A stretch of 64,000 nt of DNA from Planctomycetota bacterium (lineage in GTDB: Bacteria; Planctomycetota; B15-G4). Every line of letters begins with the position of its first letter. Positions within the stretch are counted from its first letter, which is position 1. The position numbers were made by a program, and so were the translations under genes. Of this stretch, positions 3,784-12,185 are shown one piece after another. The stretch covers positions 828,665 to 892,664 of the forward strand of contig BQJR01000002.1 in the NCBI GenBank assembly GCA_021604805.1, given 5' to 3'. The notes under the pieces are model-generated. The model was given only the letters and a program-made list of their open reading frames with translations, made no database searches and had not been told where the DNA came from.

Positions 3784-4218
3784 CTGAGTCCGTCCAGTAC
3801 CAGCCGCGAATTGACCACGCTGCGCGAGAAGGCCGAGCAACTGCTCGCCGCCTCGGTGCGTGAATTCGAGCGCAAGGGCGAGCGTTTCGTGGTGCCCTAC
3901 CAAGACACGCAGATCATCGTGCATCCGATCGACTGGACGCGCGGCCGCACGATCTTGCGCCTGATCGCCCCGGTGGTCACCGACCTCGACGAGAGCGCCG
4001 AGCTGCACCGACGCCTGGGCGAGTTCAACAACACGACCATCTTCGGCAAGTTCTATCACCGCGACCGCACGGTCTTCCTGGAGCACAACCTGCTCGGGGA
4101 GTCGGTGGATCGCAACGCCTTCCAGGCGGCGCTGGCGTCGGTGGCGCACAACGCCGACCACCTCGACGACGTGTTGCTGGCCGAGTTCGGCGGGCGCAAG
4201 TGGAGCGACGATGCCTGA
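3784..4218 (+). CDS. YbjN / type III secretion chaperone-like protein
   Basis: A 144-residue soluble protein resembling the YbjN/CesT-like fold, by its length, alternating strand-helix pattern and segments such as FVVPYQDTQIIVHPIDWTRG and DRTVFLEHNLLGESVDRNAF. Proteins of this fold are usually dimeric chaperones or adaptors. No enzymatic motif is present. The proposed CTG start is set by the adjacent GGAGGTGA; the first ATG/GTG/TTG alternative is TTG 3811, giving 135 residues. Its last 8 bases overlap the start of the ClpA-like gene, so the two are almost certainly co-translated. I infer that it may feed or regulate that unfoldase. The fold assignment is moderate; the partnership is inference from gene overlap. 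Confidence 0.65.
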   Translation: MSPSSTSRELTTLREKAEQLLAASVREFERKGERFVVPYQDTQIIVHPIDWTRGRTILRLIAPVVTDLDESAELHRRLGEFNNTTIFGKFYHRDRTVFLEHNLLGESVDRNAFQAALASVAHNADHLDDVLLAEFGGRKWSDDA

Positions 4219-6610
4219 ACCCGCAGCGACCTTTGTCGCGCTTCCGGTCTACACCGAGCGCAGCTTGCGTCCCGATGTCGTCGAGCTGCTCGACGCGGTC
4301 ACCGATGTCGCGCGTCGCCTCAACCACAACGTGCTCGGCGTGGAACACCTGCTCGTGGTGGGCGCCGAGAACGGCGTGGAGGACATGGCCCGCGCCGTGC
4401 CCAGCCTCACGGCCTTCCGCGAAGCCCTGCTCGACGCGCTCTTCCACGACCGCGAAGAGTTCCGCTACGAAGCCGAGAGCGGCGACGACCTGATCTACCT
4501 GCGCAGCGAGCTGGCCGCGGTGCTCGACCGCATCCAGGCCGGCGAAGACGCGCCCGACCTGCTCGCCGAGCTGATGCTGCTCGACGTGAAGCGCGTGCGC
4601 GCCGCGCTCACCTACGCACGCGGCACCGAACCCGACGTGATGCCGCCCGACAGCTTGAGCCTCGACCGCTCGCACGACCTCTCGGCGGACCTCTCGGCCG
4701 ACGAGGCCGCAGCCAGCGCCGACGGCGCCGCGACCGCCAGCCAGTCCGCGGCGCCCAACCCCTCGAGCGGGCGCGGTCAGGCGCCCGGCCCCGCACTGCG
4801 CCCCGAGTTGCCGCTCACGCTCGACCTCGGCGTCGACACGATCGACGACCCCGAGTTCGTCGGCCAGAAACCCTTGCTCGACGGCATCGCGCGCATCCTG
4901 CTGCGCTTCCACCAACCCGCGCTGCTCATCGTGGGCCCGGCCGGCTCCGGCAAGAGCGCGCTCGTGCGCGGCCTTGCGCGCGCCGCCACCGCCGGCGAGT
5001 TGCCCGGTCTCGAAGGCTTCAAGTTCCACCAGCTGCGCCTGCTCGAACTCGTGGCGCAGAGCCATCGCGGCCAAGACCTGCACGGCCTGCTCGATCACAT
5101 CTTGGGTGAGATCGGCGAGGACCCCAAGGCCGTGTTGGTGGTCGACGACCTGCACTTGCTCGTGGCCAAGCAGGGCTACCCGCTGCTCTCCGACCTGATC
5201 GACACGATCAAGCTGCACATCAGCAAGGGCAAGGTGCGCGCACTGCTGACGGTCGACGCCGACGTGTACGCGCGTTCCTTCGAGAGCGACGGCTTCTTCG
5301 GCTCGCAGATCACGGTGAAGACGCTGAGCGTGCACGAGCGCGACGCGCTGGCCGACATCATCCGCGTGTACCGCCCACGCCTCGAGACGCACTTCGGTCT
5401 GCAGATCGAGGACGACGCGCTCGAGGCCGCCGTCGACGCCACGCTCAACGACGACAAGTCGGACTACTCGCCGCCCGGCAGCACCGTGCGTCTGCTCGAC
5501 GAAGCCTGCGCCATGGCGCGCTCGGCGAGCGAGATGAACGTGAACGCGGGCCACGTGCACCGCTGCCACAGCGAGGAAGCCAGCGACTCGGCCCACGTGG
5601 ACCGCAAGCGCCTGGCGAACATCGAGAGACGGCTGGCCACGCGCGTGCTCGGCCAAGAGGTCGCCGCGGGTGCCGTGGCGCGTCGTGTGCGGCTCGCCAA
5701 GTTGCACTTGGACCGCAAGCCCGAGCGGCCCGACGGCGTGTTCCTGTTCATGGGCCCGTCGGGTGTGGGTAAGACCGAGATGGCGCGCGCCCTGGCCCGC
5801 GCGCTCTACGACGACGAGAGCCGTCTCGTGCGACTCGACATGAGCGAGTACATGGAGCCGCACTCGGTGGCGCGCATCATCGGCGCGCCACCCGGCTACG
5901 TGGGCTACGGCGAGTCGGGCGCGCTCACGGCGCCGGTGGCCGAGCTCGGCCACTGCGTGGTGCTGCTCGACGAGATCGAGAAGGCGCACCCGCGCGTGCT
6001 CAACCTGTTCCTGCAGGTCTTCGACGACGGCCGTCTCACCGACAGCAAGGGCCGACTCGTGAGCTTCGCCGAGACCGTGCTGATCATGACGTCGAACATC
6101 GGGCGCGAGCTCTACGCGATCCACGGCGAGCCCGCGATCGGCTTCGGCGGCGACCAGCGCGCCGCGCAACCCGACGGCCCCGTGCGCGACGTGGTGCAGG
6201 ATCACTTGCTGCGCGTGCTGCCCGCCGAGTTCGTGAACCGCATCGACGAGATCGTGCCCTTCCGCGTGCTCAACGAAGAAGACATCGTGAGCATCGCGCA
6301 ACGCCTGATCGAGCTCGAGGTCGACCGCTGGCGCGGCCGCGGGAAGACCATGACCTACACGCCCGAGGTGCCGGAGTTGCTCGGCAAGTCGGGCTACGAC
6401 CCGCGGCTCGGCGCGCGTCACGTGGAGCGCAACCTCGAGCGCTACGTGATCTCGCTGATCAGCGACGCGGCCGTCACCGATGAGTTCGAGGGCATCAAGG
6501 AACTCGCGCTGAGCGTGGTCGACGGTGCGATCTGCTTGAAGCTCGACGGCGAACAGTTCGTGTGTCTCGCCGAGAGCGGCAAACTCTCCCGCGGCGACGG
6601 GAAGAGCTGA
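4211..6610 (+). CDS. ClpA/ClpC-like AAA+ unfoldase
   Basis: A 799-residue HSP100 protein with two AAA+ modules. Residues 20-130 resemble a Clp N domain (LNHNVLGVEHLL). A Ser/Ala-rich linker (about 145-205) follows. D1 has Walker A GPAGSGKS (242-249) but a diverged Walker B, VVDDLH, with Asp where Glu is usual. D2 is canonical: GPSGVGKT (515-522), LLDEIEKAHP (585-594), sensor TSN (627-629), the FVNRIDEIVPF finger region and a GARHVERNLE sensor 2. An IGF tripeptide (643-645) matches the ClpP-docking loop of ClpA/C/X, so it probably works with ClpP. It lacks the long middle domain of ClpB. Overlap with the YbjN-like gene by 8 bases suggests coupled expression. ClpA versus ClpC naming is uncertain because D1 is so divergent. 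Confidence 0.85.
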   Translation: MPEPAATFVALPVYTERSLRPDVVELLDAVTDVARRLNHNVLGVEHLLVVGAENGVEDMARAVPSLTAFREALLDALFHDREEFRYEAESGDDLIYLRSELAAVLDRIQAGEDAPDLLAELMLLDVKRVRAALTYARGTEPDVMPPDSLSLDRSHDLSADLSADEAAASADGAATASQSAAPNPSSGRGQAPGPALRPELPLTLDLGVDTIDDPEFVGQKPLLDGIARILLRFHQPALLIVGPAGSGKSALVRGLARAATAGELPGLEGFKFHQLRLLELVAQSHRGQDLHGLLDHILGEIGEDPKAVLVVDDLHLLVAKQGYPLLSDLIDTIKLHISKGKVRALLTVDADVYARSFESDGFFGSQITVKTLSVHERDALADIIRVYRPRLETHFGLQIEDDALEAAVDATLNDDKSDYSPPGSTVRLLDEACAMARSASEMNVNAGHVHRCHSEEASDSAHVDRKRLANIERRLATRVLGQEVAAGAVARRVRLAKLHLDRKPERPDGVFLFMGPSGVGKTEMARALARALYDDESRLVRLDMSEYMEPHSVARIIGAPPGYVGYGESGALTAPVAELGHCVVLLDEIEKAHPRVLNLFLQVFDDGRLTDSKGRLVSFAETVLIMTSNIGRELYAIHGEPAIGFGGDQRAAQPDGPVRDVVQDHLLRVLPAEFVNRIDEIVPFRVLNEEDIVSIAQRLIELEVDRWRGRGKTMTYTPEVPELLGKSGYDPRLGARHVERNLERYVISLISDAAVTDEFEGIKELALSVVDGAICLKLDGEQFVCLAESGKLSRGDGKS

Positions 6611-7975: not shown

Positions 7976-9457
7976 TCAGGGCTCGTAGCGTCCCAGCAGG
8001 TCGTTGGCTGTTTCCACGCCGACGCGCATGGAGCGCGCCATGTTGTTGTACCAGAACTGTCCGGAGCGCCCGATCGAGCGCAGGTTGTCGAACTTGTCGT
8101 GCTCGGCCCAGATGCGATCGAGCTTCTCGCGGTAGTCCATCGGGTACACGGGGTAGCTGTCGGGCACGAACATGTACTCGATGTCTTCGATGTCCTCGCG
8201 CTTGCACACGCCGAGCTTCTCGAGGCCTTCGGCGATCTTGTCGAGCAAGCCCGCGCGCTCTTTCTCGTCGCGGAACTCGGTGCGCGTGATCTCCACGCAC
8301 AGGCTGTCTTTGCCTGCGGGGCAGAGTCCGCCGACGGAGCGGTTCGGGTAGTAGATGCGATTGAAGACGATGTCTTCGTCGGCGATGTAGGTGTAGAGGT
8401 CGTCGCCTTCAGCGAGCGGGCGATTGATCTTCATCAGGCCGAGCATGATCGTGAAGAAGGGCAGCTCTTCGCGCGGGATGCCGGCCAGCGTGCACATGCG
8501 GTGGATCGAGCCGGTCCAGATCACGCACTCGGGCTCGACGACTTCGCCGCCGTCCCAAGTGACCTTGGTGATGTGGTGCCCTTCGGTCTCGAAGGCCACG
8601 TTCGACGCCTTGAGGTGCAGCGTGCCGCCCTCGCGCTCGTAGGCCTCGGCCACGCGCTCGGTGATCATCCCCACGCCGCGCGGCGGGTAGAGCACCTTCT
8701 TGTAGTTCTTGGCGAAGGCCGTGCGGAACAGGCCCTGCACGATGAGCCAGGCGCGCTTGATGCCCTTGGGATGGCTGCGCTCTTCCTTCGAGTCGCCGCC
8801 TTCCGCGGGCTGCTGCGCCTTCACCTGCGGGTAGCGTTCGAGGTAGCGCTCCACGAGCTTGGGCTCGAGCTGCAGCGTCTTGTCGCGCTTCACGTCGGGC
8901 ACGTTGTGCACGGTGCGCGCGGTCTGGTTCCACCAATCGCGGTGAAGCTCGCCCTTGAGCCCGGTGCGGCTGGGGACCTTCTTCTCCATGTACGGGCCGA
9001 GGAACACGTCCCACAACTTGCCCCCGAACATGCCGCGCATGTACTCCTTGGCGGAGTAAGCGGTGGGGATGTTCTGCGTGAAGGAGTTGCGCAGGAAGGT
9101 GTAGATCGAGCTCGGCGGCAGCTTGAAAGCCGCGCTCGCCGACGGGGGCCAGGGCACGTTGCGCTTGCCGATCTTCGCGCCGATCTTGAAGTCGATCGGA
9201 CGCCACTCCTCAGGCTTCATGCTCGACTTGATCAGTTCGTTGACCTGATCGCTGACGTCGAGGAAGAAGTAGTGCGGACCGACATCGAACACGTGCTCGC
9301 CGAAGGACACCGTGCGCGCCAATCCGCCCACCACGTCGAGCCGCTCGAGCACGATGACTTCCTTGCCGGCGCGATGCAGAGTGGCCGCGGCGCCGAGCCC
9401 CGCCATGCCGGCACCCACCACTACGATCGGGCCGCTACGGGGAGGTGCGTTGGTCAC
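7976..9457 (-). CDS. FAD-dependent oxidoreductase, amine oxidase/UDP-galactopyranose mutase-like
   Basis: A 493-residue flavoprotein. The N-terminus has the dinucleotide-binding motif VVVGAGMAGLGAA followed by VIVLERLDVVGGLARTV, typical of the protoporphyrinogen oxidase/phytoene desaturase/UDP-galactopyranose mutase superfamily. Later segments such as GVGMITERVAEAYEREGGTL and the C-terminal SIGRSGQFWYNNMARSM (FAD pyrophosphate region) fit the same group. GTG 9457 is chosen because AGGAG lies about 7 bases upstream; the TTG at 9478 is too close to the likely transcription start. Neighbouring glycosyltransferase suggests a sugar- or lipid-linked substrate. The exact reaction is unknown. Confidence 0.8.
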   Translation of the reverse strand: MTNAPPRSGPIVVVGAGMAGLGAAATLHRAGKEVIVLERLDVVGGLARTVSFGEHVFDVGPHYFFLDVSDQVNELIKSSMKPEEWRPIDFKIGAKIGKRNVPWPPSASAAFKLPPSSIYTFLRNSFTQNIPTAYSAKEYMRGMFGGKLWDVFLGPYMEKKVPSRTGLKGELHRDWWNQTARTVHNVPDVKRDKTLQLEPKLVERYLERYPQVKAQQPAEGGDSKEERSHPKGIKRAWLIVQGLFRTAFAKNYKKVLYPPRGVGMITERVAEAYEREGGTLHLKASNVAFETEGHHITKVTWDGGEVVEPECVIWTGSIHRMCTLAGIPREELPFFTIMLGLMKINRPLAEGDDLYTYIADEDIVFNRIYYPNRSVGGLCPAGKDSLCVEITRTEFRDEKERAGLLDKIAEGLEKLGVCKREDIEDIEYMFVPDSYPVYPMDYREKLDRIWAEHDKFDNLRSIGRSGQFWYNNMARSMRVGVETANDLLGRYEP

Positions 9458-9795
9458 GGGTTGCTCCTGGGTCGACAAAAAGGGCGCGCATCATAGCGCG
9501 CGAACAGCGTGGCGTGGACTCGCGTGACTCCCCGTCGACCAGCCGGTGGGGGTGGCTTGACCCCAGCTCCAGAACCCGTCTCGCGAACCGCCGTGTGGGG
9601 CGTTCGACCCCCGATGCACAACTCGGGCTCGATACTTTCAAGAGACGCCGACGTCGAAAAAGCGATCCGAAACGGCCGGGCCATCGGGTAAGAAGGGTTC
9701 GGGTCTGCTGGCGGTAGGCCCACCACGCTGCGAAACCGGCCTCGATGGGGTCGCCACGCATCGATCTTGAACACGAGCAGGAGGGAGTCCAGCGC
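9458..9795. other. 338-base divergent intergenic region
   Basis: This gap separates the minus-strand oxidoreductase start from the plus-strand ArsR gene. Besides the TATGAT element and the ribosome sites I see no hairpin, no RNA gene and no convincing small protein gene. It may hold operators for the ArsR protein, but no clear inverted repeat stands out. Confidence 0.4.
9490..9495 (-). promoter_or_regulatory. -10-like TATGAT for the oxidoreductase-glycosyltransferase pair
   Basis: On the minus strand TATGAT lies about 33 bases before GTG 9457, with the AGGAG site in between. No good -35 match was found. Confidence 0.35.
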
Positions 9796-10200
9796 ATGGA
9801 CATGATGCAGGCCAACAACATGTCGCGAAGCCTCAAAGCGCTGTGCGACGTGAACCGCATCCGGATCCTCGAGATCCTCGTGCGGGGTGAGTTCTGTGTC
9901 ACGGAGCTCGTGGAGCAGCTCGGGATCGACCAGCCCAAGGTCAGCCACCACTTGGCGATCTTGCGCAGTGCGAGCGTGATCCGGAGTCGTCGCGACGGGC
10001 GACACATCAACTACTCGCTGCTGCCCACGGTGCACTCGCGCACCGAAGGGGATCAGGGTCCGGTCGACGTGTTCAACCTGGGCGAGCTGAGCGTGAGCTT
10101 CCGCTTCGAGCGCCCCGAGGAAGCCGGGCGTCGTCAGCGGCTCGACGGTCGACCCGCCAGCGACGACGGCGAACTCTCGGCCTCCGAAGCCGGCGCCTGA
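9796..10200 (+). CDS. ArsR-family transcriptional regulator
   Basis: A 134-residue winged-helix repressor. Residues 8-75 carry the ArsR fold: SRSLKALCDVNRIRILEIL, then the helix-turn-helix CVTELVEQLGIDQPKVSHHLAIL, and the wing RRDGRHINYSL. The metal-binding ELCVCDL box of classical sensors is reduced to one cysteine (EFCVTEL), so it may sense something other than metal. The C-terminal 50 residues are polar and likely disordered. ATG 9796 follows AGGAGGGAG (9779-9787); an in-frame ATG at 9745 precedes that site and is less likely. It is divergent from the oxidoreductase gene, a plausible target. Confidence 0.85.
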   Translation: MDMMQANNMSRSLKALCDVNRIRILEILVRGEFCVTELVEQLGIDQPKVSHHLAILRSASVIRSRRDGRHINYSLLPTVHSRTEGDQGPVDVFNLGELSVSFRFERPEEAGRRQRLDGRPASDDGELSASEAGA

Positions 10201-10225
10201 GTCCAGGCCTGAACGGACGAAGGGC

Positions 10226-10495
10226 TCAGCCCTCGCTCGCCACGTCGTCCTCTTCATCATCGAGCACGGGCTCTTCTTGCTTCGTGTGTTTGCGAAGCTC
10301 GAACTCGAAGCGCGCATTCGACGCGGCGTAGCGCAGCTTGCCCGCGCTGCACTCGGGGCACACCCAATCGAGCAACGCGGACATGTCGGCGTTGTAGTGG
10401 GTGAGCATGTTGTTGTTGCGGTTCACCCAACACTCGAACAAGCACTGTGGGCCGTCACACTCGAACTTCAGAAGTGACAACATGGTGCTCTTCAT
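10226..10495 (-). CDS. small zinc-ribbon-like protein
   Basis: An 89-residue protein with five cysteines: C13, C18 and C22 near the start and a CPEC pair (C46, C49), as in small zinc-binding domains. The tail is highly acidic (LDDEEDDVASEG). The start at ATG 10495 is supported by GGAG 9 bases upstream. I do not recognise a family or function. It is convergent with the ArsR gene and lies downstream of purF on the same strand, with a hairpin between them. Confidence 0.65.
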   Translation of the reverse strand: MKSTMLSLLKFECDGPQCLFECWVNRNNNMLTHYNADMSALLDWVCPECSAGKLRYAASNARFEFELRKHTKQEEPVLDDEEDDVASEG

Positions 10496-10685
10496 GTGCG
10501 GTGTCTCCGTGCGGGGGCGTCCGAGGGGCTTCGGCTCCTCGAGGTCGCTGCCGCGAACGTGGCTTCGAATTCTAGGGGTGAGGGCGAAGACCACAAGACC
10601 TTCACCGGGTCAGAACCTGAGGCGCGCCCGAATCGCGCCGTGAGTGCTCAGAGCGCGTGATCGCCAACGCGAGCCCGGGGCGGGT

Positions 10686-10706
10686 CGAGCGCCAACTCGG
10701 CGCTCG
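10686..10706 (-). terminator. hairpin after purF
   Basis: CGAGCGCC and GGCGCTCG form a perfect 8-base-pair stem around loop AACTC, starting 7 bases beyond the purF stop codon on the minus strand. No T-run follows. Confidence 0.5.
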
Positions 10707-10712
10707 CGGGTG

Positions 10713-12185
10713 TCAGCCTGGCGGTTGCTCGGCGCCAGCCACGATGCGTTCGGCCTCGATGTTCGCGAGGCGGGCTTCGTCGACATCGCCGGTGGGATAG
10801 TGGCCGGAGAAGCACGCGTTGCAGCTGTCGGTGAGCGCGTCGTTGCCTTCGAACACGGCCTGCTTGAGGCTCTCAAGAGGCAGGTAGACAACGCCGTCGG
10901 CGCCGATCTCTTGCGCGATGGCTTCGTCGCTGCGATCGCGCGCGACGAACTCGTTCTTGGTGGCCATGTCGATGCCGTAGATGCACGGGTAGCGCAGCGG
11001 CGGCGACACCGAGGCGAAGTACACCTTGCGCGCGCCAGCGCGGCGCGCCACCTCGACGATCTTGCGCGAGGTGTTGCCGCGCACGATCGAGTCGTCGACC
11101 AAGAGCACGTCTTTGCCGTCGAACTCGAGCTGGATCGGGTTGAGCTTCATGCGGATCGCGTCGCGCCGCAGGTCGTTGCTGCCCATGATGAAGGTGCGAC
11201 CGATGTAGCGGTTCTTCACCAGGCCTTCGCGGTAGGTCATGTCGAGCGCGCGCGCCATGGCCATCGCCGAGGTCGTGGCCGACTCGGGCACGGGGATGAT
11301 CACGTCGGCCTTCCAGCCCGTGGCTTCCCACACGGGCGCCATCAACTCGCCGAGACGCAGGCGCGTCTTGTAGACCGAGACCTTGTCGAGGAAGGAGTCG
11401 GGGCGCGCGAAGTAGACCCACTCGAACAGGCAGGGCGTGTGCGTGTTCTCGCCGATCTGCTCGCGATGCAGCTCACCGTGCTTGTCGATGAACACGGCCT
11501 CGCCGGCGGCCAGGTCGACGGTTTCATGGAAGTCGAGGATGTCCATGAGCACCGATTCGGAGGCCACGCACCATGTCTTGCGGCCCTGCTCGTCGAGGCG
11601 ACTGCCCATGATGATCGGCTTGATGCCGTAGGGGTCGCGGAAGGCGTACATGCCTTCGTCGGCCACGATGCCGACGACCGAGTAGGCGCCCTTCACGCGG
11701 CTGAACACACCGCGCACGGCGTCGAAGATGTTCTTCGGTTGCAGCGTCTCGATCTTCTGGCGGGCCAATTCGTCGCCGAAGACATTGAGGATGCCTTCGA
11801 GGTCGCAGGAGCTGTTCACGTGCCAGTGCGAGCCGGCCGACATCTCGTTGCGGATCTCGTCGAAGTTGGTGACGTTGCCGTTGTGCACCATCCCCACGCC
11901 GAAGGGGTAGCCGATCATGAACGGCTGCGCGTCCTCGGCGCCACCCAAGCCCACGGTGGGGTAGCGCACGTGCGCCACGCCCATCCAACCCGTGAGCGAC
12001 TCGGCGGCTTCGGGGGTGAACACGTCGCGCACCAAGCCTTGCGACTTGTGCAGGTGGAAGCGGCCATCGTAGGTGAGCGCGCCGGCGGCATCCTGACCGC
12101 GGTGCTGGATGGCGAGCAGGCCGGTGGCGAGTTGCGGGAAGACCTGGCTGTCGCGAGGTCCGAGGATGCCGATGAATCCGCACAT
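10713..12185 (-). CDS. purF: amidophosphoribosyltransferase
   Basis: The 490-residue enzyme makes 5-phosphoribosylamine from PRPP and glutamine, the first step of purine synthesis. Cys2, directly after the start methionine (MCGFIGILG), is the N-terminal glutamine-hydrolysing nucleophile; HRGQDAAG and HNGNVTN are conserved glutaminase segments. The C-terminal transferase domain has the PRPP loop VLLVDDSIVRGNTS. Cysteines in CLFEWVYFARPDS, YPCIYGID and CNACFSG match the four 4Fe-4S ligands of the Bacillus-type enzyme, but there is no propeptide before Cys2. It is a single-gene unit with its own -10-like element at 12215-12220. Length is normal for the family. Confidence 0.96.
   Translation of the reverse strand: MCGFIGILGPRDSQVFPQLATGLLAIQHRGQDAAGALTYDGRFHLHKSQGLVRDVFTPEAAESLTGWMGVAHVRYPTVGLGGAEDAQPFMIGYPFGVGMVHNGNVTNFDEIRNEMSAGSHWHVNSSCDLEGILNVFGDELARQKIETLQPKNIFDAVRGVFSRVKGAYSVVGIVADEGMYAFRDPYGIKPIIMGSRLDEQGRKTWCVASESVLMDILDFHETVDLAAGEAVFIDKHGELHREQIGENTHTPCLFEWVYFARPDSFLDKVSVYKTRLRLGELMAPVWEATGWKADVIIPVPESATTSAMAMARALDMTYREGLVKNRYIGRTFIMGSNDLRRDAIRMKLNPIQLEFDGKDVLLVDDSIVRGNTSRKIVEVARRAGARKVYFASVSPPLRYPCIYGIDMATKNEFVARDRSDEAIAQEIGADGVVYLPLESLKQAVFEGNDALTDSCNACFSGHYPTGDVDEARLANIEAERIVAGAEQPPG

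Follow-up and report, generated by a model that had tools for sequence, protein, structure and literature searches.

A YbjN-like gene overlapping the gene for a two-ring Clp unfoldase with a degenerate first ring in Planctomycetota

A 64,000-nucleotide stretch of a Planctomycetota genome (the window; the genome, G000, is 4.47 Mb) carries a small gene of the YbjN/TY-Chap1 family that runs into the gene for a two-ring Clp/Hsp100 unfoldase, in which the second AAA+ ring (D2) is canonical and the first (D1) is degenerate. As far as our searches show, the pair is a rare conserved combination of known protein kinds and is new as a combination in the literature found here. The reading we favour, with a probability of about 0.42, is that this gene pair specifies a small proteostasis module: a ClpP-docking unfoldase would be driven by D2 alone, D1 would form a collar that binds ATP, and the YbjN-like protein would act as client-binding adaptor or regulator. 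The features of the locus are as follows.

3784 to 4218, + strand: YbjN/TY-Chap1-family gene, 144 aa counted from CTG 3784, with an alternative start at TTG 3811
4211 to 4218, + strand: overlap of the YbjN-like and unfoldase genes, 8 bases, ATGCCTGA
4211 to 6610, + strand: two-ring Clp/Hsp100 unfoldase, 799 aa, without an M domain
4268 to 4630, + strand: degenerate Clp_N-like N-terminal domain, in which the first repeat alone is recognisable
4808 to 5530, + strand: first AAA+ ring (D1), degenerate by sequence comparison
4934 to 4957, + strand: D1 Walker A GPAGSGKS, kept (motif alignment)
5054 to 5074, + strand: D1 pore-1 loop region AQSHRGQ, without Tyr, Phe or Trp (motif alignment)
5138 to 5155, + strand: D1 Walker B VVDDLH, Asp replacing Glu (Asp-Asp in 5/5 paired proteins)
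5294 to 5308, + strand: D1 arginine-finger region FFGSQ, arginines lost (motif alignment)
5471 to 5485, + strand: D1 sensor-2 region, PPGST instead of PDKA (motif alignment)
5600 to 6490, + strand: second AAA+ ring (D2), canonical (Pfam AAA_2 4.2e-52, ClpB_D2-small 2.1e-9)
6137 to 6145, + strand: IGF loop, predicted ClpP contact (motif alignment)

The overlap, pointed out by the sequence-only reading of this DNA, lies at 4211–4218, and an overlap of 8 bases can be read off the printed sequences of all four pair-bearing Planctomycetota genomes. Because the pair and the same ring-1 changes recur in five genomes from two phyla, the arrangement exceeds what chance would give; a chance or annotation artefact was rejected on the identical overlap length and the shared D1 changes.

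The small protein belongs to known families by curated Pfam cut-offs, matching TY-Chap1 (PF22551) with E=3.3e-17 and 62.8 bits (cut-off 27) and YbjN (PF10722) with E=5.8e-9 and 36.7 bits (cut-off 22); its Riflebacteria homologue scores 48.7 and 22.4 bits on the same two models. An AlphaFold2 model of the window protein (mean pLDDT 89.7) has a predicted class I T3SS-chaperone fold: Foldseek returns the cyanobacterial YbjN-family structure 2plg (E 3e-7) and E. coli YbjN 6vu7 (7e-4), and its best matches also include the T3SS chaperones ExsC (3kxy) and SycT as well as DR1245 (4h5b). Fold and Pfam families are thus common to the window protein and the YbjN/TY-chaperone family represented by E. coli YbjN, AmyR, DR1245 and Tll0839. 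PMC5398634 describes YbjN proteins as working via protein–protein contacts, with family-wide conservation limited to the core and the dimer interface, and PMC3575483 reports that DR1245 binds DdrB. None of the YbjN titles listed names a Clp partner, and titles and abstract openings in the open-licence PMC literature yielded no paper on a YbjN–Clp pair.

Under ATG/GTG/TTG rules the sole start for this gene is TTG 3811. Residues S7 and E9, encoded 5′ of that codon, are invariant across all seven aligned homologues, and a GGAGG is seen on inspection immediately 5′ of CTG 3784, so that CTG 3784 is the likely start codon on sequence grounds. Separately, YbjN-like orthologues begin with ATG or GTG near the site of the window's CTG (3784–3786).

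The larger protein has two AAA+ modules and a ClpABC-type D2, which place it by sequence among the two-ring Clp/Hsp100 unfoldases. Ring 2 contains GPSGVGKT, GYVGY, LLDEIEKAH, MTSN, EFVNRID and GARHVER together with the IGF loop, bearing out the earlier description of a canonical second ring with such a loop. D2 is canonical in all five paired unfoldases, each with an [ILV]G[FL] loop (IGF in four, VGF in one), and docking on ClpP is predicted from this loop. The N-terminal domain is degenerate: hhalign aligns it to one Clp_N repeat with 90% probability over 34 columns only, and HMMER gives a weak match to ClpC N repeats. A fold model of the full-length unfoldase is poor (pLDDT 59.6).

Ring 1 was aligned with E. 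coli ClpA, E. coli ClpB and the window genome's own ClpC and ClpB. The sequence-only reading had called this ring very divergent, with Asp for the Walker B Glu, and VVDDLH agrees; the divergence is real and was understated, since the pore-1 aromatic, the arginine finger and the PDKA sensor-2 motif have gone as well. Walker A is kept and DDLH is invariant in all five paired D1. The pore-1 aromatic is missing from all five, the four Planctomycetota proteins having no more than a His there; an arginine at the finger position is absent from all five (one carries an Arg at a shifted site), and PPGS or PPGA stands in place of PDKA. The search loci supplied 56 distinct ring-1 sequences for comparison, 5 of the paired type and 51 others, the latter a non-random sample, as their loci had been ranked by how similar they are to the query: Walker B Glu, pore-1 aromatic and arginine finger are present in 51/51 of the others and in 0/5 of the paired D1. 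Judged from its motifs, D1 has kept the phosphate-binding loop but no longer has what trans-activated hydrolysis and a grip on substrate require.

These losses bear on whether ring 1 might still be an active, divergent ATPase, for which the Walker B Asp and a substitute for the arginine finger would suffice, an account compatible with any of the other readings. Asp-Asp Walker B motifs are found in some active AAA+ proteins, such as those of the DnaA type, and the retention of Walker A in 5/5 with an invariant DDLH fits the idea; the joint loss of arginine finger, pore-1 and sensor-2 motifs in 5/5 makes it unlikely.

Comparison with the housekeeping unfoldases upholds the earlier claim that this protein is distinct from ClpA and ClpC, on low model scores, the missing M domain and a separate D2 branch. 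It resembles E. coli ClpA in having two AAA+ rings without an M domain, a ClpP-type loop (IGL in ClpA) and a small partner gene immediately upstream, as in clpS-clpA, where ClpS is an adaptor. ClpA differs in its D1, which has KYRG, the Walker B Glu, an RR finger and PDKA where the window D1 is degenerate, and the window protein differs in its degraded N-domain and in a partner that is YbjN-like, not ClpS. On the NCBIfam equivalog model for ClpA (TIGR02639) it scores 332.9 bits, below the cut-off of 993, and the functional D1 motifs of ClpA (pore-1 Tyr, Walker B Glu, arginine finger) occur in none of the five paired proteins; the genome's own ClpC, not a ClpA, scores 798.5 on this model. The ClpB model TIGR03346 gives 344.8 bits against a cut-off of 1232, which the genome's own ClpB, at 1141.1, likewise falls below, and the long M domain of ClpB is absent. 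Rounded, the two models give 799 and 956 for the own ClpC versus 333 and 345 for the unfoldase. The gap between D1 and D2 is 18–20 residues in the four Planctomycetota paired unfoldases measured, versus 84–88 in ClpC-like and 144–159 in ClpB-like proteins, and with one degenerate Clp_N repeat the protein lacks both the short M domain and the two repeats of ClpC. The own ClpC (L067 4104–6641, with a McsB-like kinase frame upstream) shares a similar D2 and ClpP loop and differs in its M domain (gap 84), canonical D1 and both Clp_N repeats. The D2 of the unfoldase branches separately from ClpA, ClpB and ClpC. ClpI of Actinomycetota is likewise an extra Clp unfoldase class defined bioinformatically; it differs in its conserved Walker A/B motifs and, in a subset, a short M domain, and the excerpt of that account mentions no YbjN partner (PMC10149685).

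ClpC and ClpB have genes of their own in the window's genome, so the unfoldase is an extra machine and not the housekeeping one. Besides ClpC and ClpB, G000 encodes on contig C3 a Clp-type ATPase with one ring (AAA_2 + ClpB_D2-small) and a VGFG loop, whose N-terminal region is unfamiliar (L003 295–1815); single-ring frames of similar length occur among the matches in many Planctomycetota genomes. The genomes of the window's family encode ClpP in 6/6 cases and ClpS in 5/6. As a further observation, G000 has a third, divergent ClpP-like gene some 7 kb away from clpS (G000:C1:1121485–1122000 and C1:1128889–1129101), and in G001, G002 and G003 the two likewise sit on one contig, no more than about 9 kb apart.

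Instead, the unfoldase could work without ClpP, as a chaperone or disaggregase to which the YbjN-like protein is co-chaperone. This would suit the T3SS-chaperone fold of the partner, and no ClpP-like gene was noted adjoining the pair among the ORFs of the window or of the Riflebacteria locus L075. We nevertheless regard it as quite improbable, given the [IV]GF loop in 5/5 paired unfoldases, the lack of a ClpB-type M domain and the presence of ClpP in every genome of the family.

Within that family the YbjN-like gene is present in 6/6 genomes and the unfoldase in 4/6 (G000, G001, G002 and G004), each time with the YbjN-like gene. In the remaining two, G003 and G005, the YbjN-like gene is kept in the same slot, directly abutting a glycosyltransferase gene, without the unfoldase, and a search of these genomes found no paired-type D1 elsewhere in them. 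An assembly gap was rejected as the cause at the locus, where the slot is contiguous and the two genes abut. In G005 a B12-binding radical SAM gene stands upstream of the slot in two tandem copies (L043 2342–6062). The two genomes group together in unrooted trees of neighbouring genes (SBP 0.97, PurF 1.00, glycosyltransferase 0.97, radical SAM 0.77); as sisters, they are most simply explained by a single loss of the unfoldase. Their YbjN-like proteins retain 34 and 32 of the 35 positions that are invariant in the five pair-bearing genomes, within the range obtained by leaving out other genome pairs, and because the protein is kept there with normal conservation, it must have a use without this unfoldase.

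More widely, paired-type D1 was found in 4/392 Planctomycetota genomes (E <1e-200, with the next best match, 8e-40, at the level of an ordinary Clp), and the pair is therefore rare. The YbjN profile matches 14/392 Planctomycetota genomes; within the class it matches 6/14, all from the window's family. Nine weaker YbjN-like loci in eight other Planctomycetota genomes were rejected as additional pairs: none has a Clp gene within the fetched stretches, which extended about 3–6 kb either side as far as the contig allowed. Searches for carriage of the pair on a plasmid or phage gave no match. Membership in a defence system was also rejected, as nothing convincing emerged and the PADLOC matches sit on generic AAA+ regions.

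A scan of a collection of genome contigs gave six loci, one of them from Candidatus Riflebacteria. There the YbjN-like gene (L075 8004–8450) is followed by the unfoldase gene (8497–10839) with 46 bases between them; in this unfoldase ring 1 is altered in the same way, ring 2 is canonical and an IGF loop is present, and the two proteins are 35% and 38% identical to those of the window. Only 1/39 Riflebacteria genomes carries either gene. A misbinned contig was rejected, since two other Riflebacteria genomes have cyclase genes 74–75% identical to the one on it, and another two genes of the neighbourhood are matched in one or both genomes at 58–76%. Adjoining this pair, in divergent orientation, is an isolated N-terminal Hsp70 fragment of 123 aa (L075 7539–7910).

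This distribution leaves the notion of a dedicated pair partly standing. Sought in other genomes, as the sequence-only reading had proposed, the two genes recur together in 4/6 family genomes and 1/39 Riflebacteria, that is, in two phyla, yet 2/6 family genomes keep the YbjN-like gene alone and equally conserved, and conservation of the pair, on which that reading had staked its claim, is neither clearly upheld nor clearly broken. The distribution also bears on a rival account, in which the YbjN-like protein has a general role in holding clients or in regulation, the unfoldase works alone, and the overlap merely co-expresses two proteins that do not touch. Unrelaxed conservation of the YbjN-like protein in G003 and G005 speaks for this, although these are a sister pair and so probably reflect one loss, as do the other YbjN-like loci without Clp neighbours. 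Against it, co-linearity persists in two phyla that otherwise share little synteny at the locus, and none of the five genomes that carry the unfoldase lacks the YbjN-like gene. On balance we find two non-touching proteins a somewhat doubtful account.

The patchy distribution suggests joint transfer of both genes; deep ancestry with loss is an alternative that the data accommodate. In the D2 tree the paired unfoldases are sister to an M-less, IGF-type Clp of G010 and G006 (joint clade 0.999), genomes from another family of the window's order. This closest relative shares the IGF loop with the paired proteins and differs from them in keeping the canonical Walker B Glu and arginine finger where readable (L047), so ring 1 probably decayed within the paired lineage and is not primitive. 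No YbjN-like match was found in the G010 and G006 genomes, and their canonical IGF-type Clp genes were rejected as extra pairs on that ground.

The favoured reading of a D2-driven unfoldase with a collar-like D1 and a YbjN-like adaptor is one we infer by analogy with the ClpA and YbjN literature. In ClpA, as PMC9663308 describes, D2 does most of the motor work, with D1 as an auxiliary motor that is important for recognition. In the module, D1 would bind nucleotide and hold the hexamer together while exerting no pull, and D2 would perform all unfolding and feed ClpP via the [IV]GF loops. Probably as a dimer, the YbjN-like protein would bind particular clients or the N-domain/D1 collar of the unfoldase, and may thereby supply the client recognition that D1 and Clp_N give ClpA and ClpC. 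Translation from overlapping frames would keep both proteins proportionate. Some relatives keep the chaperone alone, so it can also act without this unfoldase. A bolder version would make the pair a new class of Clp, with a pseudo-ATPase upper ring, recognition ceded to a co-translated adaptor of T3SS-chaperone fold, force delivered by ring 2 into ClpP, and the pair moving between phyla as a unit; we put this forward tentatively and think it rather unlikely.

YbjN proteins occur widely and are little understood; for one of them, being genetically locked to an AAA+ partner would supply a function that can be tested. A natural Clp protein with a motor-less first ring would directly probe what D1 contributes to ClpA and ClpC, be it recognition, processivity or assembly. 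Were the new-class version true, a YbjN protein would have gained a defined mechanical partner, and there would be a Clp protease in which one of the rings is dead.
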